A stretch of 64,000 nucleotides of DNA from an uncultured Pseudomonadota bacterium. Lineage in GTDB: Bacteria; Pseudomonadota; Gammaproteobacteria; Burkholderiales; Thiobacillaceae. The notes under the pieces were generated by a model. It was not told the origin of the DNA, searched no databases, and worked only from the letters and a program-made list of their open reading frames with translations. Below are positions 1-44,378 of this stretch, piece after piece; positions within the stretch are counted from its first letter, which is position 1, and each line of letters begins with the position of its first letter. Where the stretch lies: positions 1 through 64,000 of the forward strand of contig CAILNT010000086.1 in NCBI GenBank assembly GCA_903835655.1. The letters run 5' to 3'. The position numbers were made by a program, and so were the translations under genes.

Positions 1-131
1 CCCCTTGCGGGTGCAGCGGAGTCGTTGGCGGCTCGGCCGCCGTACGAATCCGGCGTACCCCTTGCGGGTGCAGCGGAGTCGTTGGCGGCTCGGCCGCCGT
101 ACGAATCCGGCGTACCCCTTGCGGGTGCAAC
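1..131. repeat. 57-bp tandem repeat with palindromic core (REP-like)
   Basis: Two identical 57-bp units lie at 1-57 and 58-114, and the first 17 bases of a third follow before it diverges. Each unit contains a perfect 6-bp stem with a 3-base loop (GGCGGC-TCG-GCCGCC at 27-41 and again 57 bases on). The array may continue to the left of the window. A diverged copy lies at about 54305-54365 on the other strand, where the stem sequence differs but still pairs. That marks this as a structured dispersed element rather than simple slippage. Confidence 0.85.
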
Positions 132-212
132 GCAGCCAGGCGTCGCCTGCCGTGCAATCGGGTGCGTAGCGGGTTCACCCAAAGGGTGAGCGTGATCGAA
201 GGCGCAAACCTT

Positions 213-268
213 AAAGCTCATGGGGCCTCACAAGGGAAAATGAGCGGTCAACTGAGGATTCAAGGATT
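213..268 (+). repeat. Dispersed leader-like repeat, copy 1
   Basis: About 50 bases here (from CATGGGGCCTCAC to GAGGATTCAAGGAT) nearly match the region just upstream of the glycosyltransferase start at 37524, read on the minus strand there. I count only a few mismatches. No gene follows on the plus strand at this copy. The rest of 132-276 shows no gene. Confidence 0.6.
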
Positions 269-276
269 ATCGGATA

Positions 277-1371
277 TCAGGCTCTCGTTAGCCACAGCGC
301 AAGCGTGAAGCCAAACCACACGAGAGCGATCAGAGCGGGCATGCCGGAACAGCGATAACCCAATAGCGGCAGCAGGGCCGCCGCCAGAAACAGGAGGGCA
401 CGCACGCCGTTCCAACGGGTCAGGCGCTGCCGCGCTTCCCCGTGCCAGGCGCTGCCGTGACCGGGTTCGAGCCAAACCGGCAGCAACTGGCTGGCCGCAC
501 CGCTGAGCAGGGGCATGAGAAAGCCTGGCAGAAACAGGGTGAGTGGCGCGCTACCCGTCAGCGTACCGATCAGCGCGCAGGCATAGCCAGCGCCAGCGGC
601 GGCAAGCAGCGGCGTGGCGCCATGCCAACCCAGAATCCGGTGGCGATACAGTCGCCACCAGGCCAGCCCCATGCGCCCCAACACCCAGGCCCAGAGTGCG
701 CCGCCCAGCCAGGCCAGAGGGGGTAGCCAGGCCTGGCCGATGGCGAGTGCGAGACTGCCGGCCAGCGCCCATTTCAGGTCATCGCGCAAACGCACTGCGG
801 CCAGGGGATCGGGCCGATCGGCCGCGGTCGGCAGCAGAACCTGCAAGGTTCCCACCGCGGTCAAGCCGATAAAGCCATAGAGATTGATATGCAGATGAAA
901 GAGGCGCAACGCCCCATGCCATCGCGGCAGCAGCGGCAATAACGCCGCAGCCGCCAGGCCCAGCGCCAGGCAGGCCATCGCCGCGACATACCAGTCCAGG
1001 CCCGGGTGCGGGCGGCCCAGTGCCCGGCGGGCGCGACGCAGCATCCAGACCACCATCAGGACGGCGACACAAAGGCCCAGCGCCGCCGCCAACATCACCC
1101 AGGCAAAATCCAGTACGCCGGCGAACACCAGCGAGGCCAGCGCCCCGGCCGCGGCCATCAACCAGGGCAGGCGCGCGCTCCAGCGCCCCGGCGCCCGCCC
1201 GCGCGTGAGCACCGGCACGAAATGCTGCATGGCCGCGGTGATCAGCGTCATCACACCCAGGGCGAGAACCCCGTGCGCCCAGAGGGCGGGTGCGACGGCG
1301 ATCACCCTGGGCAGCGACTGTCCGGCGAACAGCGCGATCAGGGTGGCGATGAGGAGGGTGACCAGGACCAT
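277..1371 (-). CDS. Multi-spanning membrane protein, heme-copper oxidase subunit I-like or NnrS-like
   Basis: This 364-residue protein is almost entirely hydrophobic, with roughly ten or more membrane segments. Histidines sit in membrane contexts, for example HGVLALGVMTL near residue 33 and LFHLHINLYGFIGLTA near residue 156. That arrangement recalls single-subunit heme-copper-oxidase-like proteins and the NnrS family, both often found near denitrification or nitric oxide genes. It is the last gene of the minus-strand run that begins with napD and follows moaA by 40 bases. A function in nitrogen oxide stress or heme/copper binding is inferred from composition and context. No full HCO histidine set was verified. 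Confidence 0.55.
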   Translation of the reverse strand: MVLVTLLIATLIALFAGQSLPRVIAVAPALWAHGVLALGVMTLITAAMQHFVPVLTRGRAPGRWSARLPWLMAAAGALASLVFAGVLDFAWVMLAAALGLCVAVLMVVWMLRRARRALGRPHPGLDWYVAAMACLALGLAAAALLPLLPRWHGALRLFHLHINLYGFIGLTAVGTLQVLLPTAADRPDPLAAVRLRDDLKWALAGSLALAIGQAWLPPLAWLGGALWAWVLGRMGLAWWRLYRHRILGWHGATPLLAAAGAGYACALIGTLTGSAPLTLFLPGFLMPLLSGAASQLLPVWLEPGHGSAWHGEARQRLTRWNGVRALLFLAAALLPLLGYRCSGMPALIALVWFGFTLALWLTRA

Positions 1372-1411
1372 GGACTTGGCGCGTGCGTCGATTGCGCTGG
1401 ACGGGGCGGTT

Positions 1412-2392
1412 TCAGCCGCCGGTCATGTTCATGAAGCGGACGAGTTTTTGCGGTTGCTCGCGGAATTCGTGGCGTTCCGGTTTCAGGTCGATGGCGCGGT
1501 GGCAGGCCTCGACCAGGTCGGCGTCGGTGGCACCCGCGCGCATCATCCGGCGGAAATCCATGTGCTCTTCCTGCCCCAGGCACAGATGCAGCACGCCGTC
1601 CGCGGTGAGCCGCACGCGGTTGCAACTGGCGCAGAAATGCTGCGAGATCGGCGTGATGAAGCCGACCGTAAAGCGCCCGTCGGGGGTGCCCAGATAGCGT
1701 GCCGGGCCGCCGCCCGTCATCAGGGTGTCGACCAGGGAGAAGCGTTGGCGCAGTCCATGGATCACCGGTTGCAGGTCGACGTAGCCCATGCGCCTGGCGG
1801 TCTCGCCCATGGGCATCAGCTCGATCAGGCGCAGGACGAAGCCGCGTTCCATGCAGAAGGCGACCATGGCGTCGATCTCGTCGACGTTTTCCTGCATCAC
1901 CACCATGTTGACCTTGATCGGCGCGAAGCCGACCTGGCGCGCGGCTTCCAGGCCCGCCAGCACCTGTTCCAGGACCGGGCTACCGTTGATCTTCGCCACC
2001 CGCTCAGGGCGCAGGGAGTCGAGGCTGATATTCAGCCGGCGGACGCCGGCGCGCTTGAGATCGCCCGCCATCCGCGCCAGTTGCGTGGCATTGCTGGACA
2101 AGGACAGATCCTCGATGCCGGGCAGGGTGGTAATGCGCGCGCACAGTTCGGGCAGCTTGCCGCGCAACAGCGGCTCGCCACCGGTCAGGCGGACGCGTTT
2201 GAGCCCCAGTCCGGCGAACAGGCCGAGCAGGCGTTCCAACTCGGTGAACGTCAACCAGTGTTCCGGTTCCTCGAAATTCTTGAAGCCTTTGGGGATGCAA
2301 TAGGCGCAACGCAGGTCGCAGCGATCCGTGACGGAAAGCCGCAGGTATTCGATGCTGCGGCCGAAGCGATCGACGAGCGAATTCGCGTTCAT
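1412..2392 (-). CDS. moaA: GTP 3',8-cyclase, molybdenum cofactor biosynthesis protein A
   Basis: This radical SAM enzyme performs the first step of molybdopterin synthesis, converting GTP to 3',8-cyclo-GTP. The 326-residue length is normal. The radical SAM cluster motif CDLRCAYC is at about residues 26-33, followed by the TGGEPLLR motif. The C-terminal second iron-sulfur cluster region CASCNRVRLTADG is present, and the protein ends in the double glycine (MTGG) needed by this family. It sits downstream of napDAGHB, whose NapA needs molybdenum cofactor, so linked expression is plausible. It lies 7 bases after the TPR gene stop. Confidence 0.95.
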   Translation of the reverse strand: MNANSLVDRFGRSIEYLRLSVTDRCDLRCAYCIPKGFKNFEEPEHWLTFTELERLLGLFAGLGLKRVRLTGGEPLLRGKLPELCARITTLPGIEDLSLSSNATQLARMAGDLKRAGVRRLNISLDSLRPERVAKINGSPVLEQVLAGLEAARQVGFAPIKVNMVVMQENVDEIDAMVAFCMERGFVLRLIELMPMGETARRMGYVDLQPVIHGLRQRFSLVDTLMTGGGPARYLGTPDGRFTVGFITPISQHFCASCNRVRLTADGVLHLCLGQEEHMDFRRMMRAGATDADLVEACHRAIDLKPERHEFREQPQKLVRFMNMTGG

Positions 2393-2399
2393 GGCGTGG

Positions 2400-2837
2400 C
2401 TACTTCGTCGCCTCGTCGATCTTCGCCAGGATCGGCACGAGCTGCGCCCGGCGGCCGGGTTCGAGCCGCATCGCTTCCTCGAAGGCCGCGTGGGTCAGTG
2501 ACTTTTCGCCGCCGTGCAGGTAGGCAATGCCCATGCCGATGAAAGCCTTCGCATTGTTCGGGTCGAGGGCGATGGCCTGCTGGTAGAGAGCGATGGCGGC
2601 GGTGAAGTTGTTCTGGGCGATATTGACGCCTGCCAGCCTCATGTGTGCGTCCACGGAGCGTGGGTCGGCCTTGAGGGCGGCGACGAAGGCCTGCTGCGCC
2701 GGTTCGAGTTTGCCCTGTTGCAACAGAAGCGTGCCGCGGGCGATCAGCTCGGTCGCGTTATCTGGGGTCGCAGCCAGCGCGGGTTGGAGGCCGAGCGTAC
2801 AAAACAGTGCAAGCAGCGGAAAGAGTCCAGGTTTCAT
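2400..2837 (-). CDS. Secreted TPR-repeat protein
   Basis: The protein has 145 residues with a signal peptide (MKPGLFPLLALFCTLGLQPA then ALA) and about three tetratricopeptide repeats covering the rest, such as the NNAKAFIGMGIAYLHGGEK stretch. TPR proteins are protein-protein scaffolds. In a nap/cytochrome c neighbourhood a periplasmic TPR protein could assist cytochrome assembly, like the TPR part of NrfG or CcmH, but nothing here proves it. It lies between the octaheme cytochrome gene and moaA on the same strand. Confidence 0.75.
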   Translation of the reverse strand: MKPGLFPLLALFCTLGLQPALAATPDNATELIARGTLLLQQGKLEPAQQAFVAALKADPRSVDAHMRLAGVNIAQNNFTAAIALYQQAIALDPNNAKAFIGMGIAYLHGGEKSLTHAAFEEAMRLEPGRRAQLVPILAKIDEATK

Positions 2838-2862
2838 GCGGGTTCCAGTCGAGTTGCGAACG

Positions 2863-2888
2863 TGGCCCCCCCTTGCGGGAGGGCCACG
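2863..2888 (-). terminator. Strong hairpin after the octaheme cytochrome gene
   Basis: An 11-bp stem (GTGGCCCCCCC at 2863-2873 and GGGAGGGCCAC at 2878-2888, one G-T pair) encloses a 4-base TTGC loop. It starts 12 bases after the cytochrome stop codon. There is no run of T after it, so it may be an mRNA-stabilising or partial attenuation structure rather than a full terminator. Confidence 0.5.
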
Positions 2889-2899
2889 AAATACCTTGC

Positions 2900-4372
2900 T
2901 TACTTCAGGGCGCCCTTGCCGTAGCGCTCTTCGTAGCCTTTGCGCACCTTCTCGATGGCATCCTTGGAGAGGCCATTGAAGTACCAGTCATGGCCGTCGA
3001 TGGGCTTGAAGTACTTGGCGAGCAGTTCATCGGCGAACTTCTCGTTGCCGTCCTTCTTGCGCACCACTTCGCGCATCTCCGGAATCCACTTGAAATAGGT
3101 GTCCTGGGCGACCACATAGATGCCGTTCCACCAGGTGTAGTCCGGGCCCATCATGGCGGCGCCATGGCGAGCGCGGCGGCCTTGATGGTGCCAGATTTCC
3201 CACCAGGTCCACTCGATCTTGTCGTCGAAGGGGGCTGCGGTGATGTAGCCGCCCTTGACCAGTTCACCCATCATGGAAGAGAGGGGTTTGGCGAACTTGT
3301 CGTTGTAGAGGTCCACGACGTCATCGAACTGCTTGTAGTGGCCCAGCACCTGACGATCGGTGTGGCAGGCCGAGCAGACGTCCTTCATCTTGTCGCGGCG
3401 CTGCTCCCAGGTCAGGATGGATTTGACCTTGGAGCCTTTCACCTCGTCGCCGATCTTGGGCAGGGGCTGATTGGCGGGCTGGTCGAATTCGTCGCCGCTT
3501 TCCAGGCGAACCATGTTGAGCTTGCTGGAGACGGCCGGCCTCAGTGTCCAGGAGATACGCTCGCCGACATCGTGGGTAACGGCCTGTTCACGCGTGGCAC
3601 CCATGTGACAGGTGGCGCAGGTGGGCGCTGCCGAATAGTCCCGGCCGACGACCCAATGCTTGGATTCCATGTTCATTTCCTTCTCGAAGGACTTGAACAG
3701 GATGCCGTGCTTGGACTCCTCGTAGATCTCTTTCTGCGGGTGATCCGGCCCCAGATGGCATCTGCCGCAGGTGTCGGGCTGACGCGCTTGCGCCGCGGAG
3801 AAGCGGTGTCTTGCGTGGCAGGAGGAGCAGGAACCGCGACTGCCGTCCAGGTTGTGGCGGCCGATGCCGGTGTTGGGCCAGGTCAGGGGCGTGGGCATGC
3901 CTTTCGCGTCGACTTCCACGTTCGAACCGTGGCACTGACGACAGCCGGCGTTGACGGCTTGCGGTCCGCCGATCACTTCGCCCATCAGGTTGTCCAGGGA
4001 ATTCAGGATGTCGCCGGCCTTGGCATGGTGCGAACGCTGTTGCTGGGCCACTTCCTTCTCGTGGCAGGCGGCGCAGTCCTTGGGCGTGACGATGGTGTGG
4101 ATCGTGACCTTGTGGTGCAGGTAAGCGCCTTTTTCACCGGCCTGGGCCTTGTGGCAATCGAGGCAATCCACGTCCTTGCCGGCGTGCGCGCTCTTCTTCC
4201 ACTCGGACACCAGGCCCGGTGTCTCATCCATGTGGCATTTGACGCATTTCTGCCCCGTAGCCATCTCTTCAGCCGACTTGCTCGGCGCGGCATCCGCCGT
4301 GTTCAGCATGAACACCGCACATGCGAGGATGCCCATGATCCTCGGTAGTAGTCTGGGTAGTAATCGCTTCAT
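2900..4372 (-). CDS. Octaheme hydroxylamine oxidoreductase-like cytochrome c
   Basis: This is a periplasmic multiheme cytochrome of 490 residues with a signal peptide ending near residue 29 (NTADAA). Eight CXXCH heme motifs are at about residues 43, 70, 100, 144, 182, 202, 252 and 333. The spacing and the C-terminal GRRARHGAAMMGPDYTWWNG block fit the HAO/epsilon-HAO octaheme family, not the tetra- or pentaheme NrfA family. The start at 4372 is chosen because AAGGAG lies 7 bases upstream and the signal peptide begins there. Family members either oxidise hydroxylamine or reduce nitrite, nitric oxide or hydroxylamine. Its place downstream of napB, with an FNR/DNR-type site upstream, favours a reductive or detoxifying role, which is an inference. 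Confidence 0.88.
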   Translation of the reverse strand: MKRLLPRLLPRIMGILACAVFMLNTADAAPSKSAEEMATGQKCVKCHMDETPGLVSEWKKSAHAGKDVDCLDCHKAQAGEKGAYLHHKVTIHTIVTPKDCAACHEKEVAQQQRSHHAKAGDILNSLDNLMGEVIGGPQAVNAGCRQCHGSNVEVDAKGMPTPLTWPNTGIGRHNLDGSRGSCSSCHARHRFSAAQARQPDTCGRCHLGPDHPQKEIYEESKHGILFKSFEKEMNMESKHWVVGRDYSAAPTCATCHMGATREQAVTHDVGERISWTLRPAVSSKLNMVRLESGDEFDQPANQPLPKIGDEVKGSKVKSILTWEQRRDKMKDVCSACHTDRQVLGHYKQFDDVVDLYNDKFAKPLSSMMGELVKGGYITAAPFDDKIEWTWWEIWHHQGRRARHGAAMMGPDYTWWNGIYVVAQDTYFKWIPEMREVVRKKDGNEKFADELLAKYFKPIDGHDWYFNGLSKDAIEKVRKGYEERYGKGALK

Positions 4373-4500
4373 CTCAGGTCTCCTTGACTTATAAAAACAT
4401 AACCGCACATTGCCAGCCACCTCGTTTCCGACCGTAGCGGACTTCCCCTCCACGATCGGCGCTTGGGGCGTATGGTAGGACCGGGCTTGCGCGGGCTTCC

Positions 4501-4514
4501 TTGACAATCATCAA
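4501..4514. promoter_or_regulatory. FNR/DNR-type binding site upstream of octaheme cytochrome
   Basis: TTGACAATCATCAA matches the CRP/FNR superfamily pattern TTGAY-N4-RTCAA with one half-site change. It lies about 130 bases upstream of the octaheme cytochrome start, between that gene and napB. A second site of the same kind precedes napD. Confidence 0.65.
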
Positions 4515-4554
4515 GACCGCTGAAGGTCCACCCGCACCGGGGTTTCGGGCGGGA

Positions 4555-5025
4555 TTACTTCGCCTTTCTGAAAGTGCTCTTTACCAGCAGATCCACCTTG
4601 GCTTGCGGACGGTGGCACTGGATGCAATTCCAGCGGCCCATGTAGAGTTCGCCTTTCTTGACGTCGACATAATGGCTAGCGGGGGAAGGGATAGGCATGC
4701 CCGGACTGAGTTTCTGGCCGATCAGATCCGGCAACACATGGCAGTCGCGGCACAAGTTGGTATCGCGCGTGATGGGCACCATGTCCTTGATGGTGTGCGG
4801 GATCATGGGCGGCGCGGAGTAGTAGGACTTGGCGATGCGCTTGTTGCTGCCGGGGTCGCCGCCACCATATTCGGCCATGACGGGTGCATCGGGAATGTCG
4901 TAGACGCTGGTCTTGGACAGGCCAAGCGAGTCATCGGGTATGGCTTGATCCTGAACCGCAAACGCAGGCAGGGACACAGCCATGGCCAGGACGACACTCA
5001 ATGTCTTCCACGCGGGTTTGCTCAT
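4555..5025 (-). CDS. napB: Periplasmic nitrate reductase diheme cytochrome c subunit
   Basis: NapB passes electrons to NapA in the periplasm. The protein has 156 residues with a signal peptide ending at SLPAFA. Two heme motifs, CRDCH (about residue 92) and CIQCH (about 135), carry the usual NapB surroundings, including the MIPHTI segment that supplies a distal histidine. The start codon overlaps the napH stop by 4 bases, which indicates translational coupling in napGHB. Confidence 0.96.
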   Translation of the reverse strand: MSKPAWKTLSVVLAMAVSLPAFAVQDQAIPDDSLGLSKTSVYDIPDAPVMAEYGGGDPGSNKRIAKSYYSAPPMIPHTIKDMVPITRDTNLCRDCHVLPDLIGQKLSPGMPIPSPASHYVDVKKGELYMGRWNCIQCHRPQAKVDLLVKSTFRKAK

Positions 5026-5933
5026 CTCGTACTCCTTTGAAAGGCATCCGCCTGTGAATTATGGCCGCGGATCATGGGTTTGAAATCGAACTTCAGACTG
5101 CCTTCTGGGCAGATCGGCGTACAGCGACCGCAATTGCTGCATTCGCCGGAATACACATAACCGCGTTCTTCCAGCTTCTTCAGGTTGAGTACCTGAGGCT
5201 CCGGGCAGACCCTGGCGCACTCGCCGCAGTGGGTGCAGGTATTCTTGTCGAAGCGCACCCGGACCTGGCCAACCCGGCCGATCAGGCTGTAAAACGCACC
5301 CAGCGGGCAGAGATGGCCACACCAGCCATTCTTCAGGATCAGCAGATCGAACAGAAAGATCGCCAACAGGGAAGTGAAGCCCATCCCCAAACCGAAGACG
5401 ATCTCGCGGTGTGCCATGCCGATCGGACTCACCCACTCGAACGCGGCCAGGCCGGAGAGGATGGTGATGACCAGGGTCGCGGCCAGGATGAAATAGCGCA
5501 GTGAGCGTGGCAACTGGAAGATCGCCTGGATACCCAACTGCTTGCGCAACCAGCCGGCCGCATCTGTGACCACGTTCACCGGGCAAGCCCAGGCACAGAA
5601 CACGCGCCCGCCCAGGAGCAGGTAGACACCCAGGACGATGCCGGCGCCGATCAGACTCTCCTGTTTCAGCACATGGCCGGTCAGAAATATCTGCAAGGCA
5701 GCGAAAGGATCGGTCAGTGGGATCAGTCCGGCGAAGGTCGATGCGGACAGATTGCCGGACAGCAGCGGCACTTTCCTACCCATGCTCCAACCCCAGTGTG
5801 CCGTGCCGAAAAACAGCAGGAGGATGCCGAACTGGCTGATGCGCCGCAGGACGATATAGCGCCAGGCCCAGAAACGTGCCACCAGCGTGCGCCGCTGGAG
5901 TTTTTCCACGGAGGCTTGGGCTGCTTGGCTCAC
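5022..5933 (-). CDS. napH: Membrane quinol oxidase/ferredoxin-type protein NapH
   Basis: NapH, with NapG, carries electrons from the quinol pool toward periplasmic NapB/NapA. The 303-residue protein has about four or five membrane helices. It contains two conserved CX3CP motifs (CAWACP at about residue 115 and CGHLCP at about 205) and two C-terminal 4Fe-4S ferredoxin motifs (CTHCGECARVCP and CSNCGRCTPICP). It overlaps napG and napB by 4 bases each. No napC is seen, so NapGH is the likely quinol route. Confidence 0.95.
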   Translation of the reverse strand: MSQAAQASVEKLQRRTLVARFWAWRYIVLRRISQFGILLLFFGTAHWGWSMGRKVPLLSGNLSASTFAGLIPLTDPFAALQIFLTGHVLKQESLIGAGIVLGVYLLLGGRVFCAWACPVNVVTDAAGWLRKQLGIQAIFQLPRSLRYFILAATLVITILSGLAAFEWVSPIGMAHREIVFGLGMGFTSLLAIFLFDLLILKNGWCGHLCPLGAFYSLIGRVGQVRVRFDKNTCTHCGECARVCPEPQVLNLKKLEERGYVYSGECSNCGRCTPICPEGSLKFDFKPMIRGHNSQADAFQRSTR

Positions 5934-6691
5934 AAGCCACCTTCATTGAGGTAGTCCATGCCAGGCGCCTTCTTGGGAACGGGGGCGTCTGCCACCGCGG
6001 GGGCCGCGGGCGGTTTGAAATCCTTGGTGACTTCGGTGTCGAAGGTCCAGCCGAGACGGTAGTGCTCGCCGATCTTCCCCTGCACCAGTTTGTGCGGCAG
6101 TATGCGGATCGCGGCCACTTCGGTGGGACAGGCATGTTCGCAGATGCCGCAACCGGTGCAGGCATCGGAATGCACCAGGGGCACGAACATGGCATGCTTG
6201 GAAATCTGCCGGGGGTGGGCCTCGAGCGTGATCGCCCGGCCCTTGATCGGGCATACACGATGGCAGATCTCGCAGCGTAAGCCCTTCCAGGACAGGCAAT
6301 TCTCGATATCGATCACTGCCAGGCCCATGCGCGCATCCTCGATGCGTTCGAGCCTGGGCGACAAGGCACCGGTGGGGCAGACCTTCATGCAGGGGATGTC
6401 CGGACACATGACACAAGCACCCGTGCGCGGCTCGTAGTACGGCATGCCGATGGGCAGACTGCCGCCGGCCTGCTGCAACTTGAGGATGTGCGGCGGGCAA
6501 GCGTTCACGCACTGCCCGCATTTGATGCAGACCGCGTTGAAATCATCCTCGGCCAGGGCGCCGGGTGGGCGCAAGGCATAGGGCGCGGCCCGCGCCTCAT
6601 TGCGCAGGATATAGCCCCACAACAGGCCACCGGTGCCCGCGAGCGCAGCCCCCTGCGCCAACTTGACCAAAAATTCGCGTCGGACGTTCAT
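5930..6691 (-). CDS. napG: Tat-exported ferredoxin-type protein NapG
   Basis: This periplasmic iron-sulfur protein works with NapH. The 253-residue protein starts with a Tat-type signal (RREFL at about residue 4). It carries four 4Fe-4S clusters' worth of cysteine motifs: CIKCGQCVNACP, CVMCPDIPCMKVCP, CEICHRVCP and CTGCGICEHACP. The last about 50 residues are proline/alanine-rich and variable. It is separated from napA by 79 bases that contain an inverted repeat, and it overlaps napH by 4 bases. Confidence 0.95.
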   Translation of the reverse strand: MNVRREFLVKLAQGAALAGTGGLLWGYILRNEARAAPYALRPPGALAEDDFNAVCIKCGQCVNACPPHILKLQQAGGSLPIGMPYYEPRTGACVMCPDIPCMKVCPTGALSPRLERIEDARMGLAVIDIENCLSWKGLRCEICHRVCPIKGRAITLEAHPRQISKHAMFVPLVHSDACTGCGICEHACPTEVAAIRILPHKLVQGKIGEHYRLGWTFDTEVTKDFKPPAAPAVADAPVPKKAPGMDYLNEGGL

Positions 6692-6701
6692 GGTTTACGT
6701 T

Positions 6702-6758
6702 GGTTCAAGGCGCAAGATACAAGGGCAATCCCTGGCGGGTTTCCTTGCATCTTGAACC
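6702..6758 (-). promoter_or_regulatory. Inverted repeat between napA and napG
   Basis: GGTTCAAG...CAAGG at 6702-6724 can pair with CCTTGCATCTTGAACC at 6743-6758, with a bulge of six or seven bases on one arm. It fills most of the napA-napG gap. Such structures often separate differently expressed cistrons by stabilising or processing the mRNA. That role is an inference. Confidence 0.45.
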
Positions 6759-6770
6759 TCGCATCTGATG

Positions 6771-9536
6771 TCAGGCCTTGTAGATCTTTACTGCGCACTT
6801 TTTGTAGTCAGTCTGCTTCGACAAGGGGCAGGTCGTATCCAGCGTGACCTTGTTGATCAGCACGCCTTCGTCGAACCAGGGCACGTACACCAAGCCACGA
6901 GGCGCGCGGTTGCGCCCGCCGGTTTCCACGCGCACCTTGACTTTGCCGCGGCGCGATTCGACCCAGACCAGGTCGTTGCGCTTGAGCCCCCTGGCATCCG
7001 CATCCTTCTGGTGGATCCAGCACACCGCCTCGGGGACCGCGCGATGCAGTTCCGGGACGCGCCGGGTCATGGTGCCTGAGTGCCAATGCTCTAGCACGCG
7101 GCCGGTCGCCAGCCAGAGGTCGTAGTTGGCATCCGGCTTTTCGACCGGCGAGGCGTAGGGGCGGAAATAGATCTTGGCTTTGTGCGAGATGTCCACCTTG
7201 CCGGCGGGGTCGCCCATCTTGTCCAGATCCCCCATCACCAGGGAATTGCCGTTGTTGCCGTAGAAATCGAAGCCGCTGCCACGGGCGACGTAAGGGTCAT
7301 ATTTCTCGTTGTTGCGCCAGGGTGTCTCGGTCCACTTGCCCTCTTTCAACACCACCGGCCATTTCAGTCCGCGCACGTGGTCGTCGTGGTAGACGTCGAA
7401 GGGTGCGAGGTCATGACCATGACCCATGCCGAACTTGCGGTATTCCTCGAACAGCGCCTTCTCGGGGAACCAGCCATCCTTGAGCAGATCGCAGATGTGG
7501 TTGCCGTGGCCGCGCGCCACCGCGTTGTCTGGCCACTTGTATTTCTTGTTTTCCGGCGTAGCGAAGAGCACTTCGTAGAGGGTGGTCTCGGGCGTGTAAC
7601 CCATCTTCACCGCCTCGTCGAGCACGCTGGGCAACTTGCCATCCGGGAAACCCTCGGCCTTGAGACCGGGCAGCGGTTGTTCGCCCCAGACCTCCTTGAG
7701 TTTGAAGCGCTTGGACAGTTCCAGCATCATCCAGAGGTCGCCTCGCGCCTGACCGGGTGGCAACACTTGCTGGCGCCAGACCTGGGTGCGGCGCTCGGCA
7801 TTGCCGTAAGCGCCCCATTTTTCGTTGATCATGGCCGCGGGCAGGATCAGGTCGGCCACCTTGCAGGACACGCCGGGATAGGCGTCGGCGACAACGATGA
7901 AGTTGTTCATCTCGCGCGCAGCCTTGATCCAGTGGTTGACGTTGGCGGTGTTCTGCCAGGGATTGTTGACCTGGGTCCAGCTGAATAGAACCTGCCCGTC
8001 CTCCAGATCGCGCATGATCTTGACGAAGTGGCTGCCCATCTGGGGGTTGATGGTCTTGGCGGGCAAATGCCAGATTTCCTCCGCGTGCGCCCGGTGCTTC
8101 GGATTCATCACCACCATGTCGGCGGGCAGACGGTGGGCAAAAGTACCCACCTCACGCGCAGTGCCGCAAGCGGAAGGCTGGCCGGTGAGCGAGAAGGCGC
8201 CATTTCCGGGCGCGGCCTGGCGGCCGGTCAGCAGGTGGATCATGTAGGCCTGCTCGTTGACCCAGGAGCCGCGCTGGTGCTGGTTGAAGCCCATGGTCCA
8301 GAAAGACATGATCTTGCGGCCTTGCTCACAATAGTAGTCGGCGAGTTGCTGCAACTTGGCCTTGAACTGATCCATCGGCTCGTCCGCGTCGCCGCGGGCG
8401 ATCTCGGCGACGAAATCGAGCGTATAGGGCTCCAGGGCGATCTTGAAATCCTCGAAGCTGATCGCCCAGTCCTTCATCGCGGTGGCCACATTCTTCTGCT
8501 CGACGACCTCGCCCTCTTTCTTGCGCTGGGCGATGGCCTCGTACTTGTCGATGACGTGCGATTTCTCGTTCTTGTAAATCTCCATCTCGGCGGCGGAGGC
8601 GTACTTTTCGACGTTCTTCGGCCGAAATCCGTAGCCGATATCGTAAGGGCCGGTTGCGAATACCGTGTGTTGCTTGACGAAATCGTGATCGATGGCGTCG
8701 CGCTTGACGATTTCCCGGGCGATGAAATTCTGGATCGCCAGGTCGGCGCTGGGCGCCATGATGATTTCGAGATCGGCGATGTCGGAGGACATGTTGCCGA
8801 ACGTGGTCAGGTTCACCACCCGCATCTTGTCGTGCGTGAGGCGGCGGTTGGTGATGCGCGACCAGAGGATGGGATGCATCTCGGCCATGTTCGCACCCCA
8901 CAACACGGCGGTGTCGGTGTACTCGATGTCGTCGTAGTTGTTCTGCGGCTCGTCGATGCCGAAGGTCTGCATGAAGCCGACCACGGCGGAGGCCATGCAG
9001 TGGCGGGCGTTGGGATCGAGGTTGTTGGAGCGGAAACCGGCCTTCATCAGCTTGACCGCAGCATAGCCCTCATGGATGGTGTACTGGCCAGAGCCGAAGA
9101 TGGAAATACCGTGCGGCCCTTTCTCTTTCATGGCCCAGCGCATCTTCTCTTCCATGATATCGAGCGCATGTTCCCAGGAAACCGGCGTGAACTTGCCTTT
9201 CTTGTCGAACTTGCCATCGGTCATGCGCAGCAGGGGCTGGGTCAGCCTATCCTTGCCGTAGTTGATCTTGCCGTTGAAATAGCCCTTGATGCAATTCAGG
9301 CCACGATTCACCGGTGCATCCGGATCCCCCTTGGTAGCGACGATGCGGTTGTCCTTGGTGGCGATCATGATGCCGCACCCCGTCCCGCAGAAACGGCAGA
9401 CTCCCTTGTCCCACTGCCAGTCTTTCTCACCTGCCCTGACGGCGGCTTCGGCCTGTTCGGACAGCGGCATGCCGACGGTGGCCGCGGTGGCCGCGGCGAC
9501 GCTGTTCTTCAGAAAGTCACGACGTGATAGTCCCAT
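6771..9536 (-). CDS. napA: Periplasmic nitrate reductase catalytic subunit
   Basis: NapA is the bis-MGD molybdoenzyme that reduces nitrate to nitrite in the periplasm. The protein has 921 residues, longer than the about 830 of E. coli NapA. A Tat signal SRRDFLKNS is at residue 4. The 4Fe-4S motif CRFCGTGCG is at about residue 47, with the fourth cysteine in [11 protein letters not shown]. The molybdenum-ligand cysteine lies in ARHCMASAV. The remaining sequence matches the DMSO reductase fold to the end, including the [16 protein letters not shown] block. It lies 19 bases after napD. Confidence 0.98.
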
Positions 9537-9555
9537 TTTCGGTCTCCTGCCTCGA

Positions 9556-9879
9556 TCAATCGTTCAGATATGCCGGTACGGCACAGGTCTCATGCGAGTC
9601 GCTCGCCGGGCCGACTTCCAACTCCGGCGGCATGGCTTCGTATACGTGCTCATCCTCGGCCAGATAGTGGTAAACCATCTCCGCCATGATGACGTGGGGC
9701 AGCGCCTTGATACGCTTCACCCCCTCGATCTCGGCGTGGATGTCCGGCGCCTCCTGCACCGCGACGATGCGGCCGTCGTCCACTTGGTGCACTTCCACGC
9801 CTTCCAGCGCATTCAGCGCCGCCACCACCCGATCCTGGCTCTCCGGTTTCGCCATCACCAATATTCCCGACAAATTCAC
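9556..9879 (-). CDS. napD: NapA signal-peptide-binding chaperone
   Basis: NapD binds the Tat signal of NapA and holds it back until the molybdenum cofactor is inserted. The protein has 107 residues, with the ferredoxin-like NapD core in the first about 80 ([32 protein letters not shown]) and a short acidic tail. The start is a GTG codon at 9877-9879, supported by AAGGAGG 6 bases upstream. It is the first gene of the nap cluster and has an FNR/DNR-type site about 60 bases ahead. Confidence 0.93.
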
Positions 9880-9938
9880 GACGCGCCTCCTTGTACTCGG
9901 ACCAGGCTCGATCCTGACCTCGCCACGTGGCGATTGCT

Positions 9939-9952
9939 TTGACCATAGTCAA
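9939..9952. promoter_or_regulatory. FNR/DNR-type palindrome upstream of napD
   Basis: TTGACCATAGTCAA is a perfect TTGAC-N4-GTCAA palindrome of the CRP/FNR/DNR type, 60 bases upstream of the napD start codon. Oxygen- or NO-responsive activation of napDAGHB is the natural reading. The other bases of 9880-10248 hold no convincing gene beyond the remnant at 10139-10198. Confidence 0.75.
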
Positions 9953-10138
9953 GACGGGGGGAAGTTGCGAGCCGGGGGAGAAAACCGCCCGTGCCTGAGT
10001 CGGCGCCTGCGGGTGACGTGCGCAAGGGGGCGCGCAAGAGCGGCCTGACTTTCTCGGCGCGGCGAATGCCTTGTTTACTGCGCGCCCGACGCCGTGGAGG
10101 GCCTCAAGCGTCGGCGTACACGCCCTGTGCCCGCGAGC

Positions 10139-10198
10139 TCAGACCCGCCCCAGGAACGCTTCGAACGCATCCAGCGGCATCGGACGCCCAGAGTAGGT
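10139..10198 (-). pseudogene. Possible remnant of the C-terminus of an EAL-domain protein
   Basis: Between two stops, the minus strand reads TYSGRPMPLDAFEAFLGRV. This resembles the last residues of EAL cyclic-di-GMP phosphodiesterases (the family's GYxFSRPMP...FExxL ending). Nothing upstream continues the domain, so if real it is a decayed end left by deletion. The match is short and could be chance. Confidence 0.3.
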
Positions 10199-10248
10199 TT
10201 ATTCGGTGGCTGCCGTCGGCTTATCGGGCGCACGCACGGCAACGGGCT

Positions 10249-12279
10249 TCAGGCCATGCCGTTGTGGCGCAGCAGCGCGTCTATGGTTGGCTCCCTGCCG
10301 CGGAATGCCTTGAAGGACTCGAGGGCCGGGCGGCTACCGCCTTGTGCCAGGATTTCGCTCCAGAAGCGGTGACCTACTTCCGGGTTGAGCACGCCGCCGA
10401 CGTGACTGCCGGCCTCTTCTTCGAACAGACTGTAGGCATCGGCCGAGAGCACTTCCGCCCATTTGTAGCTGTAATAACCGGCCGCATAGCCGCCGGCGAA
10501 GATGTGGGAGAAGTTGTTGGGGAACCGGTTGTAGTCAGGCGGAATGAGCACGGCCACGCGTCGGCGTATCTCACCCAGCAATCCCAGCGCGGTCTGGCCC
10601 GGAGCCAGATCGTGGTGGAGATGCATGTCGAACAGGGAGAATTCGATCTGGCGCAGGGTCTGCATGCCGGCCTGGAAGTTTCTGGCGGCTTGCATCTTGT
10701 CGAACAATGCCCGCGGCAGCGTCTCGCCATTGTCGACGTGGGCGGTCATGTGGCTCACCACGTCCCATTCCCAACAGAAGTTCTCCATGAACTGGCTGGG
10801 CAGTTCCACCGCGTCCCATTCCACGCCGTTGATGCCGGACACGCCCAGGTCCTCCACCTGGGTCATGAGGTGATGCAGGCCGTGGCCAAATTCATGGAAC
10901 AGGGTGATGACGTCGTCGTGGGTGAGCAGCGCCGGTTTGCCGCCCACCGGGCGGGTGAAGTTGCAGTTGAGATAGGCCACCGGAGTCTGGATGCCGCCGT
11001 CCGTGTTGCGCCGGGTGATGGCGTCGTCCATCCAGGCGCCGCCGCGCTTGGTGTCGCGGGCGTGCAAGTCGAGATAGAACTGGCCCACCCGATTTCCGGC
11101 CGGGTCGTGGATGGCATAAAACCGCACATCCTCGTGCCAGACCGGCGCGACATCAGGAACGATGGACAGGCCGTAGAGGCTCTCGATGACCCGAAACAGG
11201 CCGGCCAGCACGCGCCCTTCCTGAAAATACTGTTTCACCTCGTTTTCCGAATAGGCGTAACGCACCTCGCGCAGCTTCTCGCTGGCATAGGCCACGTCCC
11301 AGGCCTGCAACTCGGGCAGTTGCAGCGTGGACGCGGCGAACGCACGCAGTTCCGCCATGTCGCGTTCGGCGTAGGGTTTGGCGCGGATCGCCAGTTCATC
11401 GAGGAAAGCGAGCACCTGGGCCGGGCTCTCGGCCATCTTGGATTCGAGTGAGACCTGGGCGTAGGAATCGAAGCCCAGCATCCGCGCTTCTTCCTGTTTC
11501 AACGCCAGGATGCTGGAAATCAGCGGGGTATTGTCGAGTTCCGCCGCGCCGAATTCCGCGGCGCGCGTGCTGTAGGCGCGGTACATCTCCTCGCGCAAGG
11601 ACCGGTTTTCGCAATATTGCAAAATCGGCATGAACGAAGGGGCTTGCAGATTCAGCTTCCAGCCGTGTTCGCCGTCGGCTTGCGCCATCTCCTGGAACAT
11701 CGCCCTGGTGTCGTCGGGAAGGCCGGCGAGTTGCGCTTCGTCGGTGATGAGCTTCGACCAGGCGCGGGTGGCGTCTAGCAGGTTTTCCTCGAACTTGGCG
11801 GAGAGCTTGGCGAGTTCTTCCTGGATTTCCATGAAACGCGGTTTCTTCTCGTCCTCCAGGTCGGCCCCACCCAGGAGGAAGTCGCGCAACTCGTTGTCGA
11901 TGATTTTCCTGCGTGCCGGCGCCAGGCTGGCGAACTCGGACGCCCCCGCGAGCGCCTTGAACTGGCGGAACAAGCCCTCGTGCTGGCCCAACTCGGCGTA
12001 GTACTGAGTAATCTTGGGCAGATTCTCGTTGTAGACCTCACGCAACTCCGGGCTGTCCAGGACTGAATGCAGGTGCGACACCTGGCCCCAGGCTCGCGAC
12101 AGGCGCTCGTTGGCGTCTTCCATGGGGGCCACGAAGGCTTCCCAGGTGGGGGCCGCGTGCAACTGGCGCGCGACCAGGGCGCGGTTCTCGGCCAGGATAC
12201 GATCGATCGCGGGCGTGACGTGTTCGGGGCGGATTTCCGCGTAGCGTGGCAGGCCGGAGAAGTCGAGCAGTGGGTTCAT
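10249..12279 (-). CDS. prlC: Oligopeptidase A, M3 family zinc metallopeptidase
   Basis: This cytoplasmic peptidase degrades oligopeptides such as cleaved signal peptides. The protein has 676 residues, close to E. coli PrlC at 680. The zinc-binding motif is FHEFGHGLHHLM at about residues 464-475, with the conserved C-terminal YAAGYYSYKWAEVLSADAY block. The start at 12279 (MNPLLDFSGLP) matches the family N-terminus; the open frame runs 84 bases further upstream without family-like sequence. The gene follows gspB on the same strand after about 87 bases. Confidence 0.95.
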   Translation of the reverse strand: MNPLLDFSGLPRYAEIRPEHVTPAIDRILAENRALVARQLHAAPTWEAFVAPMEDANERLSRAWGQVSHLHSVLDSPELREVYNENLPKITQYYAELGQHEGLFRQFKALAGASEFASLAPARRKIIDNELRDFLLGGADLEDEKKPRFMEIQEELAKLSAKFEENLLDATRAWSKLITDEAQLAGLPDDTRAMFQEMAQADGEHGWKLNLQAPSFMPILQYCENRSLREEMYRAYSTRAAEFGAAELDNTPLISSILALKQEEARMLGFDSYAQVSLESKMAESPAQVLAFLDELAIRAKPYAERDMAELRAFAASTLQLPELQAWDVAYASEKLREVRYAYSENEVKQYFQEGRVLAGLFRVIESLYGLSIVPDVAPVWHEDVRFYAIHDPAGNRVGQFYLDLHARDTKRGGAWMDDAITRRNTDGGIQTPVAYLNCNFTRPVGGKPALLTHDDVITLFHEFGHGLHHLMTQVEDLGVSGINGVEWDAVELPSQFMENFCWEWDVVSHMTAHVDNGETLPRALFDKMQAARNFQAGMQTLRQIEFSLFDMHLHHDLAPGQTALGLLGEIRRRVAVLIPPDYNRFPNNFSHIFAGGYAAGYYSYKWAEVLSADAYSLFEEEAGSHVGGVLNPEVGHRFWSEILAQGGSRPALESFKAFRGREPTIDALLRHNGMA

Positions 12280-12366
12280 GGCGAAAGACGGTGGAGGGCG
12301 ACTCACGCAACATTGGGGCGATACGGCGGCTCTGCAATCCCCGCCCCATCGCCGCGGGAACATTCG

Positions 12367-12933
12367 CTAACGCACGCCGTGGTGGAAGCGGTAGCCCTTG
12401 TAACTCAGGATGACGCCATCGGCGGTGATCTGCTCCAGGCGCAAGCCGGGTGCGAGGAGATCGCCCTGCCTGAGCAGCTTGTCGTTGATCATGGTGATGC
12501 GATCCGCGGGCTGGCTGGCATAGCCGTGCAAGGAGATCGACAGGCTGGGGATCTCCTGCTGGATCGCCGCGGGCAATTCGCCGAGCGCGGCCACGCCGGG
12601 TTGGGTTGCGCTGGCCGCGGCTGGGCGCGCCTGTGGCTGCGGGGCCCGCGCGGGAACGCGAGGGGGTGCCGGCGGCGAAGGCGGCGAAGGCGCGGCCACC
12701 ATCTGCGGCCGGATCGGGGCCGCAGCCTGGCTCACGGCCGGCGGGGCAATCGGCTGCCAGGGCCGCAGCCAGCCGATCGCCATGCCGGCTATGAGCAAAG
12801 CCAGCGCGAGAACGACATTCAAGGAAAAGACCGGCCGTTTCTCCACCACGGCCGGAGTCGCCAGGGTCACTGGCGCCGTGCCGCGTTGGCGCTGCTGATC
12901 GGATTTCCTGAGCGCATCGAGGATGTAGGACAT
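12367..12933 (-). CDS. gspB: GspB-family type II secretion assembly protein
   Basis: This 188-residue inner-membrane protein helps GspA assemble the secretin of type II secretion systems. It begins with MSYILDALRKSDQQRQRG, the family's signature N-terminus. One membrane helix follows (about residues 40-60), then a Pro/Ala-rich linker. The C-terminal GspB domain (about 115-188) contains SLSISLHGYAS and ends in LSYKGYRFHHGVR. The start lies 2 bases after the gspA stop, so the two are co-translated. No other type II secretion genes are in the window. Confidence 0.9.
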   Translation of the reverse strand: MSYILDALRKSDQQRQRGTAPVTLATPAVVEKRPVFSLNVVLALALLIAGMAIGWLRPWQPIAPPAVSQAAAPIRPQMVAAPSPPSPPAPPRVPARAPQPQARPAAASATQPGVAALGELPAAIQQEIPSLSISLHGYASQPADRITMINDKLLRQGDLLAPGLRLEQITADGVILSYKGYRFHHGVR

Positions 12934-12935
12934 GG

Positions 12936-14480
12936 CTAGCGCACTCCCTGAACGCGGACCAGGCTGGGGGCCGTGCGATCCTTGGCGCCCAGCAGGCGCA
13001 GCAGCGTCTGCTGGCCGATATTGCCGTCGGGAACCAGACCTTGTGTGAGCTGGAACTGCTGCACCTGGCGCCTCAAGGCCGCATCGAATACCGGATCCGC
13101 CTGGGCAGCCTCCCCGGTGAGCAGCGTTTGCAACCATGCCACGGCCGCCCCCCGGTCGCCCGGTCGGATCACCCCCGGCACGGCGGGCGGCGCGCGCCAG
13201 AGCAGGGTGTAGCGTCCCGTCCATTGCGTCGCCAGGACGTTCAGGGAGACCACCTGGATCTTGCCGGCAAGGGAGAAGGTGGCGCTGTTCGCATCCAGGG
13301 AAAGCAGGGTCGCCACGAATTCGCGTCCCTGGTCGTCGTGCATGCGCAGCAATGCCGGCCGGTTCAGCTGCCGCAGCTCGTCCAGGCCGGCGCGCGCCGT
13401 GCGACAGCGCAAGCCCAGCTCCTCGGCCTGGCGGCAAGCGGCTTCGCCGCGATAGCTCGCGCCCCATGCCTGGAACAGCGCGGCATAGGCGCTCTCCTCG
13501 TCGGGAGGCTGCCGGGCGGGCCATTCCAGGGTGTCGGCCAGGACCACGGCAACGCGGGCGAGGATCGGCTTCGGCGCGGTCGCATGGGGCTGGGGCCGAT
13601 GCGTCAGCAGCGCCAGCACAGCGGCGGCAAGCAGCCCCGTCAGGAGGAGGATGCCCCGGTAGCGTGCCGGTGGACGGTTGAAGACCTCGCGCGCGGCACG
13701 CGCCAGGGTCGCGCGATCGACCCGTTCCTTGCCCTGCGCGTAGGCGCCCAGCAACGCCCGGTCGCACAACACGTTGATGATCCGAGGTACACCGCCGCTG
13801 TAGCGGTAGATCTGGCGCATGCGCGCGCCGGGAAACAAGGGCCGCTGCGTCCCCGCCACGTCCAGACGGTGGCGCACATAGGCCGCCACCTCCTGCCGGG
13901 TCAAGGGCCCCAGGTGATAGCGCGCGACGATGCGCTGCGCCAACTGGCGCAACTCCGGGCGGTCCAGCATGGCCGCAAGCTCGGGCTGGCCGATCAGGAT
14001 GATCTGCAACAGCTTGCGTTCGTTGGTTTCCAGGTTGGTGAGCAAACGCATTTGCTCCAGCACTTCGGCGGAGAGGTTCTGCGCCTCGTCGATGATCAGC
14101 ACCGCGTGTCGGCCATGGGCGTGGGCATCGAGCAGATGGGCATTGATGCAATCGACGAACACCTTGACGCTGGTGTTGCCCGCCGGGTAGGCGATGCCGA
14201 ACTCGGCGCAGATGGTCGAGAGCAATTCCTCCACCGACAGCTTGGGGTTGAAGACGTAGGCCAGGTCGCACGTCGCTGGAATCTGTTCGAGCAGGGCGCG
14301 ACAGATCGTCGTCTTGCCCGCCCCCACCTCGCCGGTAAGCAGGACGAAGCCGCCATCGCCGCCCAGGCCATAGAGGAGATGCGCCAGGGCCTCCTGGTGG
14401 CGTGAACTCATGTAGAGGAAATGCGGGGCGGGCGCGATGGAGAAAGGCGCTTCGTTCAAGCCGAAGAAATTTTGGTACAT
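12936..14480 (-). CDS. gspA: GspA/ExeA-family AAA ATPase with peptidoglycan-binding domain
   Basis: GspA couples ATP hydrolysis and peptidoglycan binding to secretin insertion. The cytoplasmic AAA domain has Walker A GEVGAGKTT at about residue 50 and Walker B VLIIDEAQNL at about 125. A membrane helix lies near residue 275. A periplasmic region follows, ending in a PG_binding_1 domain (about residues 425-500, DAALRRQVQQFQLTQGLVPDG). The start MYQNFFGL at 14480 matches the family; an in-frame ATG five codons upstream is possible. It is paralogous to the XrtA-locus ATPase at 43369-44370. Confidence 0.9.
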   Translation of the reverse strand: MYQNFFGLNEAPFSIAPAPHFLYMSSRHQEALAHLLYGLGGDGGFVLLTGEVGAGKTTICRALLEQIPATCDLAYVFNPKLSVEELLSTICAEFGIAYPAGNTSVKVFVDCINAHLLDAHAHGRHAVLIIDEAQNLSAEVLEQMRLLTNLETNERKLLQIILIGQPELAAMLDRPELRQLAQRIVARYHLGPLTRQEVAAYVRHRLDVAGTQRPLFPGARMRQIYRYSGGVPRIINVLCDRALLGAYAQGKERVDRATLARAAREVFNRPPARYRGILLLTGLLAAAVLALLTHRPQPHATAPKPILARVAVVLADTLEWPARQPPDEESAYAALFQAWGASYRGEAACRQAEELGLRCRTARAGLDELRQLNRPALLRMHDDQGREFVATLLSLDANSATFSLAGKIQVVSLNVLATQWTGRYTLLWRAPPAVPGVIRPGDRGAAVAWLQTLLTGEAAQADPVFDAALRRQVQQFQLTQGLVPDGNIGQQTLLRLLGAKDRTAPSLVRVQGVR

Positions 14481-14519
14481 GCAGGTCATGGGCACAAGGT
14501 ACCGATTACAGCGGCGACG

Positions 14520-17585: not shown

Positions 17586-17588
17586 GAC

Positions 17589-18671: not shown

Positions 18672-18722
18672 GTCGGCGCGGTCGGCGGTCGGTTCGGATT
18701 CCATGGGGCGAGCGGGATAGAA

Positions 18723-34339: not shown

Positions 34340-34349
34340 GGCGGAATTT

Positions 34350-34435
34350 GTGTATCAGTCGCGTTAGCGACGCATGATGTCCCCCTCTCCCAGGGACGGG
34401 AGAGGGGTTGGGGGTGAGGGAAAACGGGCATGGCG
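34350..34435 (+). repeat. Two-hairpin REP-like element, copy A
   Basis: Hairpin 1 is GTCGC-GTTA-GCGAC at 34358-34371. Hairpin 2 is CCCCTCTCCC at 34382-34391 with GGGAGAGGGG at 34398-34407. GTTGGGGGTGAGGG and a tail reading AAAACGGGCATGGC follow. It fills the gap between the amidotransferase stop and the next glycosyltransferase start inside the XrtA locus. The tail and core recur at 51346-51430 on the other strand. Confidence 0.75.
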
Positions 34436-34436
34436 C

Positions 34437-36362: not shown

Positions 36363-36407
36363 GTCAGTAGCGAGTAGCGAGTAATGAGTAGCGAGTGGCG
36401 AGAGCGG
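36363..36407. repeat. Short tandem repeat at the glycosyltransferase-amidotransferase junction
   Basis: Near-repeats of the 8-base pattern AGCGAGTA run in a row (GTAGCGAGTAGCGAGTAATGAG and on). The repeat encodes the ATRYSLLATRY tail of the upstream glycosyltransferase and forms the leader of the amidotransferase gene. Confidence 0.75.
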
Positions 36408-37572: not shown

Positions 37573-37579
37573 ACATGGA

Positions 37580-39091: not shown

Positions 39092-39101
39092 CCTTGAATC
39101 C

Positions 39102-40391: not shown

Positions 40392-40395
40392 CGGC

Positions 40396-44370: not shown

Positions 44371-44378
44371 AGTGGGTC

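Follow-up and report, generated by a model that had tools for sequence, protein, structure and literature searches.

Organization of the nap-octaheme locus

The window analysed here is a stretch of 64,000 nucleotides (contig CAILNT010000086.1) from an uncultured bacterium of the Thiobacillaceae, in which a periplasmic nitrate reductase (nap) cluster is followed on the same strand by the gene of an octaheme cytochrome c (OCC). The minus-strand order was napD, napA, napG, napH, napB, OCC, a gene for a small tetratricopeptide (TPR) protein and moaA. The following features were identified:

9939..9952, minus strand: FNR/DNR-type box TTGACTATGGTCAA, centred 66 bp before the napD start
9556..9879, minus strand: napD (GTG start); Pfam NapD PF03927 with 76.4 bits (cut-off 28), NCBIfam not passed (30 of 113 bits)
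6771..9536, minus strand: napA, periplasmic nitrate reductase; NCBIfam PRK13532 with 1353.9 bits (cut-off 904), Tat signal match
5930..6691, minus strand: napG; NCBIfam PRK09476 with 293.1 bits (cut-off 269)
5022..5933, minus strand: napH; NCBIfam PRK09477 with 342.3 bits (cut-off 234)
4555..5025, minus strand: napB; Pfam NapB with 71.6 bits (cut-off 25.1), NCBIfam not passed (46 of 230 bits)
4501..4514, minus strand: FNR/DNR-type box TTGATGATTGTCAA, centred 135 bp before the OCC ATG
2903..4372, minus strand: OCC, HAO-superfamily octaheme cytochrome c, 490 aa from the ATG; eight CXXCH, Pfam PF13447, PDB and fold matches
2400..2837, minus strand: TPR protein, 145 aa, gene directly after OCC; Pfam TPR
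1412..2392, minus strand: moaA, molybdenum cofactor synthesis; NCBIfam TIGR02666 with 352 bits (cut-off 284)

Judged by curated scores for NapA, NapG and NapH and by Pfam for NapB and NapD, a NapDAGHB-type periplasmic nitrate reductase is predicted to be encoded. The N-termini of OCC and of the TPR protein looked signal-peptide-like by eye. A preliminary description of this DNA had placed napDAGHB and an eight-heme cytochrome on one strand between 2900 and 9952; this layout was confirmed, all genes lying on the minus strand with eight CXXCH in OCC, and both limits agreed with the gene and box coordinates.

Family, fold and phylogenetic position of OCC

OCC contained exactly eight CXXCH motifs and no CXXCK motif, as did all 45 rows of the OCC alignment (A1). 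It matched the Pfam family Multi-haem_cyto (PF13447) with 85.5 bits (cut-off 21.9). In the PDB sequence search, 4qo5 was the best match (E 5.6e-47), followed by the nitrifier HAO 1fgj (E 1.1e-24), and then by 6h5l and further HAO-type chains. The structure of OCC was predicted by AlphaFold2 from 45 orthologues (mean pLDDT 75.5, pTM 0.68). Foldseek ranked 4qo5 nearest to this model (TM 0.61, rmsd 9.3), then 6h5l (TM 0.51) and then HAO, and all 11 matches of the model at E ≤ 0.001 were HAO-type structures or 4qo5, which we take to be IhOCC, the octaheme cytochrome of the archaeon Ignicoccus hospitalis. The eight CXXCH hemes combined with the HAO profile and predicted fold assign OCC to the HAO-superfamily octaheme cytochromes, and it is at this superfamily level that the eight-heme HAO-family identity claimed earlier was borne out, by heme count, PF13447 and fold matches.

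Relatives of OCC were taken from a collection with one genome per species, which gave 76 loci, 75 of them with a real OCC; one locus (L077) held none and was excluded. In the window's order, 399 genomes were searched and the best three candidates of each were scored, so that the count may be low; at least 32 of the 399 had any match, mostly nitrifier HAO or distant paralogues. The order of L051 yielded one further OCC (L137), with no recognisable Beggiatoaceae among its 5 genomes. Partial genes and frames with other heme counts were left out, a first tree was then reduced from 103 to 85 rows by removing 18 redundant loci, and a second held 68 rows plus 4qo5 after the removal of four more odd rows and 13 gammaproteobacterial loci.

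In the 85-row tree, 99% SH-aLRT support separated the OCC clade (65 rows) from both nitrifier HAO and an epsilon-HAO-like set. It comprised beta- and gammaproteobacteria together with loci titled Ignavibacterium, Calditrichota, Acidobacteriota, KSB1 and others. In the tree that included the visible pieces of 4qo5, this protein formed the long-branched sister of the OCC clade. The epsilon-HAO-like set is our own label for proteins of about 400-490 residues, none of them from Campylobacterota. With this set as a proxy, the label of epsilon-HAO was not adopted for OCC, and the kinship to epsilon-HAO suggested in the preliminary description gained no support, OCC falling into another clade than the proxy set. 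Three traits of epsilon-HAO systems occurred in the window's genome: the critical tyrosine was missing, Nap was present and NrfA was not found.

Several further octahemes were observed beside these. Two genomes of the window's genus (G088 and G167) carried an epsilon-HAO-like octaheme (L085, L086) that was 27-30% identical to OCC; no OCC was found in them among the candidates scored (3/3 and 3/12, respectively), and no nap gene lay in the 19 kb around the octaheme of G088 (L165). In KSB1/Ignavibacterium-type loci, a further HAO-like gene lay near OCC, at about 7 kb in L055 and at less than 2 kb in L058 and L059. On a Zoogloeaceae contig (L012), a second frame with eight CXXCH and an extremely long branch lay beside OCC from position 4071. 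In Thiocapsa sp. KS1 (L074, 9965-11485), OCC was split over two consecutive frames, which indicates either a frameshift or a sequencing error.

Active site and direction of the reaction

All 11 nitrifier HAO rows had the tyrosine of the motif W-T-Y-T-E-G, presumably the cross-link tyrosine of HAO. Of the rows aligned with them, neither the 15 of OCC nor the 13 of the epsilon-HAO-like set had a tyrosine in this column, which two alignments placed alike. Over the 45 OCC rows, the column was occupied by W (34), H (9) and Q (2). A missing tyrosine is a published sign of reductive octahemes and of the direction of HAO-like proteins (PMC12758564 and PMC3701875, in part). Because this tyrosine is missing, OCC probably works reductively and not as an HAO/HDH (P460) enzyme. 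In addition, the CXXCK motif is described as typical of NrfA and ONR (PMC12285233, in part), and the lack of such an active-site heme in 45 of 45 rows argues against OCC being of the NrfA/ONR type.

An oxidative HAO, by which hydroxylamine or hydrazine would be oxidised, is very unlikely for OCC. It would agree with the HAO fold, with the HAO-aligned Asp-His pair after heme 6, which like a Thr-His pair was invariant in 45 of 45 OCC rows, and with such activities shown in vitro by the orange octaheme of Beggiatoaceae (PMC6449678, in part), but the absence of tyrosine from the cross-link column and the separation of the clade from nitrifier HAO speak against it. An enzyme handling nitrite, nitric oxide (NO) or hydroxylamine, as had been suggested earlier, is retained as the most likely function of OCC.

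FNR/DNR-type boxes and predicted control

The exact pattern TTGAY-N4-RTCAA occurred only twice in the 64 kb, as TTGACCATAGTCAA at 9939-9952 and as TTGACAATCATCAA at 4501-4514; dinucleotide shuffles of the window gave a mean of 0.16 boxes, and none of 100 shuffles reached two. The matching boxes reported earlier before napD and OCC were thus recovered, as the only exact matches of the window. A -10-like TACCAT, read by eye, begins 23 bases past the OCC box. Over 35 aligned OCC loci, the best-scoring position of a TATAAT-like hexamer was 22 bases past the box (2.17 of 6, compared with 0.74-1.83 elsewhere; significance untested), a spacing that we take to be of class II. The sigma-70 promoter scan of positions 1-10400 returned no site.

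The box preceded OCC in 44 of 54 scorable beta- and gammaproteobacterial loci, compared with 10 of 590 upstream regions of other open reading frames (ORFs) in the same loci; L057 and L070, with no upstream sequence, and L013 and L073, with a partial frame, were excluded from the count. On the tree, presence of the box required 9 changes over 59 rows (L013 scored as boxless), and many of these rows are close relatives. Furthermore, all 9 of the other napDAGHB clusters had a box centred 65-85 bp before napD, and 1 of the 4 clusters without napGH had a box. OCC would accordingly be expected, from its conserved site, to belong to an FNR/DNR regulon, and the shared FNR/DNR-type control of nap and OCC put forward in the preliminary description gains support from the sites at OCC and napD.

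Linkage of nap and OCC

The nap comparison set consisted of 13 clusters (L153-L164, L168) from 12 other genomes, two of them from G261; nine were napDAGHB and four lacked napGH. None of the 13 contained OCC, and three of the genomes (G400, G402, G444) held OCC elsewhere (L003, L005, L062). NapA was present in all five searched genomes of the window's genus, the window's own included. Among the 75 OCC loci (L002-L076), a strong NapA match near OCC was found in three. In L014 (Rhodocyclaceae), nap lay beside OCC. L046 (Halochromatium glycolicum) carried OCC, the TPR gene, NarL and NarX on the opposite strand, a Crp/Fnr gene, a 162-aa ORF, napA, napG and napH, and in L065 (Acidobacteriota), OCC was followed by napD and by a napA cut by the contig end. 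In L043, only napGH-like genes were near OCC. Conserved nap-OCC synteny was rejected as an explanation with 0/13 nap clusters; the test of synteny in relatives, set beforehand, failed at 0/13 nap clusters and 3/75 OCC loci. What relatives of OCC retain far more often than a nap neighbour is the FNR/DNR-type box before OCC and the TPR gene after it.

By a rough chance model, 0.17 NapA genes would be expected in the 1.13 Mb of flanking DNA, with a probability of 0.0008 for three or more. The placements of nap beside OCC, the window included, required four changes over 44 scored rows; positives were counted at any length and negatives only in loci of at least 14 kb (44 of 63 rows). Because of these four separate tree placements and the 13 clusters without OCC, nap-OCC is regarded as a recurrent pairing and not as inherited synteny. 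The arrangement had been called unusual, which is a relative term: nap beside HAO-like octahemes has already been published.

The adjacency might also be that of a chance neighbour, nap having met OCC-TPR-moaA only through a recent rearrangement; this is improbable, and it would be compatible with the other readings of OCC. The empty nap clusters agree with it, as does L002, a locus of the close relative G399 that has OCC-TPR-moaA with no nap upstream, in a genome without NapA over the cut-off. L002 shared only these 3.0 kb with the window (92% identical DNA), breaking off 16 bp before the OCC ATG near what we read as an insertion-element-like hairpin. The DNA of G399 was again 92% identical over 14537-19565, with a contig end at 14537, and only scraps of 4600-14537 were found in it (40 of 143 candidates scored). 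The gene at 10249-12363 was missing too and the break lies near the hairpin, so the gap is probably one of assembly and not a loss of nap; for the same reasons, L002 was rejected as proof of a later addition of nap. Against chance also stand the recurrence of nap-OCC and the separate box of each unit.

In another nap cluster (L161, 7187-11399), with napA and napB and without napGH, moaA came directly after napB and was 61% identical to that of the window; linkage of nap and moaA may recur.

The TPR gene and other neighbours

A TPR gene lay directly after OCC in 50 of 55 beta- and gammaproteobacterial loci after a hand check (45 of 55 by script). The loci added by hand were L007, L010 and L013, in all of which the start overlaps the OCC stop, L014 (tblastn only) and L074, where the gene starts 241 bp after the second OCC frame; L032, L033, L034, L044 and the partial L073 had no TPR gene after OCC. 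Against the PDB, only generic or designed TPR proteins were among the best 60 of 96 matches of the TPR protein.

Within 10 kb of OCC, the 58 beta- and gammaproteobacterial loci, some of them short, held the FCSD flavoprotein in 21, its diheme partner in 22, CcmF in 15 and a Crp/Fnr-family regulator in 10. In L015, L016, L020 and L051, the Crp/Fnr gene was 117-252 bp from OCC. NarXL-like pairs were near OCC in five of the 58 loci (L009, L035, L036, L046, L048); NarL exceeded the curated cut-off in L035, L036 and L046 and stayed below it in L009 (226 of 250 bits). The four kinases tested, L048 being outside the scan, matched NarX/NarQ below the cut-offs. In L003 and L005, OCC was immediately preceded by FCSD genes of the same orientation, and genes for cytochrome c maturation followed.

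These neighbours bear on a sulfur-side role, in which OCC would partner FCSD in sulfide oxidation, accepting electrons or serving as a hub, or would reduce a sulfur oxyanion, the link to nitrate being secondary. Such a role is unlikely, even though FccB-like genes within 10 kb of OCC (exemplified by L005, a Pfam FCSD match) required 6 changes on the tree, FCSD was found in 37 of 51 OCC genomes including that of the window, and many carriers are sulfur oxidisers going by their names. FCSD is not near OCC in the window and was not found near it in 37 of the 58 loci, some on short contigs; nitrogen oxides are suggested by the box and by the neighbouring NarXL and nap genes, and the related octahemes in print act on nitrogen compounds.

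Elsewhere in the window, a membrane-like protein of 364 aa (277-1371), after moaA, had no Pfam or NCBIfam match at E 0.001. An exopolysaccharide cluster at 27078-46241 on the minus strand comprised O-antigen ligase, asparagine synthase, glycosyltransferases, UDP-GlcNAc 2-epimerase and an AAA ATPase; it recalls what we take to be the type found with XrtA/PEP-CTERM systems.

Gene content of OCC-carrying genomes

The 51 OCC genomes were the window's genome (G000) and those of 50 of the 76 loci. NapA exceeded the cut-off in 33 of them. Among OCC-bearing betaproteobacterial genomes, 13 of 16 had NapA (all except G399, G401 and G408), compared with 68 of 399 in the window's order; the comparison is uncorrected for kinship, and the latter count may be low, as the best two candidates per genome were scored. 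NrfA was strong in one of the 51 genomes, with nine over the loose Pfam cut-off. PF02239 (the NirS family) exceeded the cut-off in 24, with 16 strong matches (E < 1e-100), and NirK in none, with weak copper-protein matches in 29. Presumably, PF02239 also covers NirN and NirF, and PF02335 covers ONR besides NrfA. Hcp was found in 14 genomes and the NapC/NirT family in 45.

The window's genome held NapA and FCSD. It gave no match to PF02335 (NrfA/ONR), PF02239 (NirS) or TIGR02376 (NirK), NirBD, NarG, NorB, NosZ and OTR being outside the search, and none to TIGR01703 (Hcp) or PF03264 (NapC/cM552 type). The preliminary description had mentioned a route from nitrate to ammonium via hydroxylamine; in its form with free hydroxylamine it lost ground here, because two of its parts, Hcp and the NapC/cM552-type cytochrome, were not found, and ammonification by the reverse hydroxylamine:ubiquinone reductase module (reverse-HURM) of the Nautilia type appears incomplete in this genome.

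The same gene content bears on detoxification, in which OCC would clear hydroxylamine or NO arising from nitrate respiration without respiring nitrite. This is doubtful as a sole role, although it overlaps with the reading of OCC as a nitrite reductase downstream of Nap, so that the two likelihoods are not exclusive. It would fit the FNR/DNR-type box before OCC and the 16 of 51 genomes with strong NirS-family matches, which would have no need of another nitrite reductase, and it is an option raised by the authors on the orange octaheme (PMC6449678, in part). In the window's genome, no NO-forming nitrite reductase of the tested families was found, which would leave little NO to clear.

Proposed function of OCC

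The interpretation we favour, by a small margin over even, is that OCC is a periplasmic reductase of nitrite (or of NO/hydroxylamine) that is induced anaerobically and acts downstream of Nap with a TPR partner. On falling oxygen or in response to NO, an activator of the Crp/FNR family would turn on the nap operon and a separate OCC-TPR transcript. NapAB would then reduce nitrate to nitrite in the periplasm, where OCC might convert nitrite to ammonium or to NO or hydroxylamine, or might clear those intermediates, and the small TPR protein could serve as a dedicated assembly or docking partner. What was observed directly is the order of the genes, the number of hemes, the fold class of the model, the cross-link column free of tyrosine, the conservation of box and TPR gene, and the missing matches to NrfA/ONR, NirS and NirK. 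Also in favour are the frequency of NapA in OCC genomes, the recurrence of nap and of NarXL-like pairs near OCC, the fold match to 6h5l, a reducing HAO-like complex, and the reported nitrite reductase activity of the orange octaheme, which has napA and napB upstream (PMC6449678, in part). The activator, the transcript borders, the reaction, its product, the electron donor and the role of the TPR protein are all deduced parts of this scheme. Candidate electron donors are NapGH/NapB or FCSD, NapC-type cytochromes not having been found in the window's genome.

A number of observations weigh against this interpretation. The box was found before OCC in none of the 15 scorable loci of other phyla. 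In its exact form, it was also missing from the four nearest relatives of OCC (L002-L005) and from L008, L009, L010, L044, L046 and L048, in L009 despite a NarXL pair; of the relatives with nap beside OCC, only L014 had the exact box, L046 showing one mismatch and L065 three. FCSD and ccm genes neighbour OCC more often than nap does, and 18 of the 51 OCC genomes had no NapA over the cut-off, a few with fragments. Because 16 of the 51 genomes hold strong NirS-family matches, OCC does not merely stand in for another nitrite reductase. The tyrosine argument depends on the alignment, because Y412, invariant in 45 of 45 OCC rows, sits two residues before the cross-link column. The nearest solved relative, 4qo5, carried no assigned reaction in the search outputs, no biochemistry on the OCC clade was found in the literature, and for the Thioglobus homologue of the orange octaheme, a role in respiratory nitrite reduction has been argued against (PMC6449678, in part).

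A bolder version, which we consider a long shot, is that sulfur oxidisers among the beta- and gammaproteobacteria possess in OCC-TPR a so far unrecognised module for nitrite ammonification, controlled by FNR/DNR and supplied with electrons from FCSD in the periplasm. The reduction of nitrite by sulfide would then require neither the quinone pool nor NrfA or NapC, and nap would join repeatedly to give a complete nitrate-to-ammonium cassette. In a published global survey, nitrate ammonifiers are counted by nrfA and onr (PMC10716430, in part). If the OCC clade makes ammonium from nitrite, such a count would miss genomes like this one, which has Nap and gave no match to NrfA/ONR, NirS or NirK. Many sulfur oxidisers, among them, going by their names, symbionts of animals and purple sulfur bacteria, would then gain a nitrogen-retaining route. 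The conserved box and TPR partner offer a testable handle on the function of the clade.

Comparison with known octaheme systems

Nitrifier HAO resembles OCC in fold, in the eight CXXCH and in the Asp-His pair, but it has the cross-link tyrosine, which the OCC column lacks, and it forms a separate clade. Compared with this, 4qo5 is nearer, being the best sequence and fold match and the sister in the tree, likewise with no tyrosine in the cross-link column; it differs by only 26% identity over the fold alignment, by Asp-Val where OCC has Asp-His, and by a very long branch. The reducing HAO-like complex Kustc0457/0458 of Kuenenia (6h5l) was the second-best fold match of the predicted OCC structure (TM 0.51), but its identity is 19% and it is a two-protein complex of an anammox bacterium. 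In the literature, a Kuenenia HAO-like protein without the cross-link, which we take to be this complex, is stated to reduce nitrite.

Epsilon-HAO lies beside nap in Caldithrix, an arrangement also reported for epsilonproteobacteria and Denitrovibrio (PMC5317091, in part), and the reverse-HURM of Nautilia comprises nap, haoA, cycB and Har (PMC3701875, in part). Like OCC, these are octahemes without the critical tyrosine, with nap in the Nautilia genome and adjacent in Caldithrix, and NrfA is absent from Caldithrix as it is from the matches in the window's genome (PMC3701875 and PMC5317091, in part). In contrast, OCC stands outside the epsilon-HAO-like clade (a proxy), and Hcp and NapC/cM552 were not found in the window's genome.

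No paper naming the OCC clade in beta- or gammaproteobacteria was found among the best literature matches, as judged from titles and abstract openings outside subscription papers. An octaheme cytochrome c of purple sulfur bacteria is sulfide-induced in Allochromatium vinosum (PMC6374484, in part); it is not equated with OCC here. A close described counterpart is BOGUAY_0691, the orange octaheme of Guaymas Beggiatoaceae, with napA and napB genes upstream, for which nitrite reductase, hydroxylamine oxidase and hydrazine oxidase activities have been reported and detoxification has also been put forward (PMC6449678, in part). It resembles OCC as a 511-aa octaheme of sulfur bacteria with napA/napB upstream and nitrite reductase activity (PMC6449678, in part). 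The likeness is one of description, and the main text of PMC6449678 uses none of the words tetratricopeptide, FNR or operon. The pairing of nap with an octaheme is itself already known; what is new here is that OCC belongs to a separate clade, that a TPR gene and a regulatory site are conserved with it, and that nap and NarXL have joined it repeatedly.

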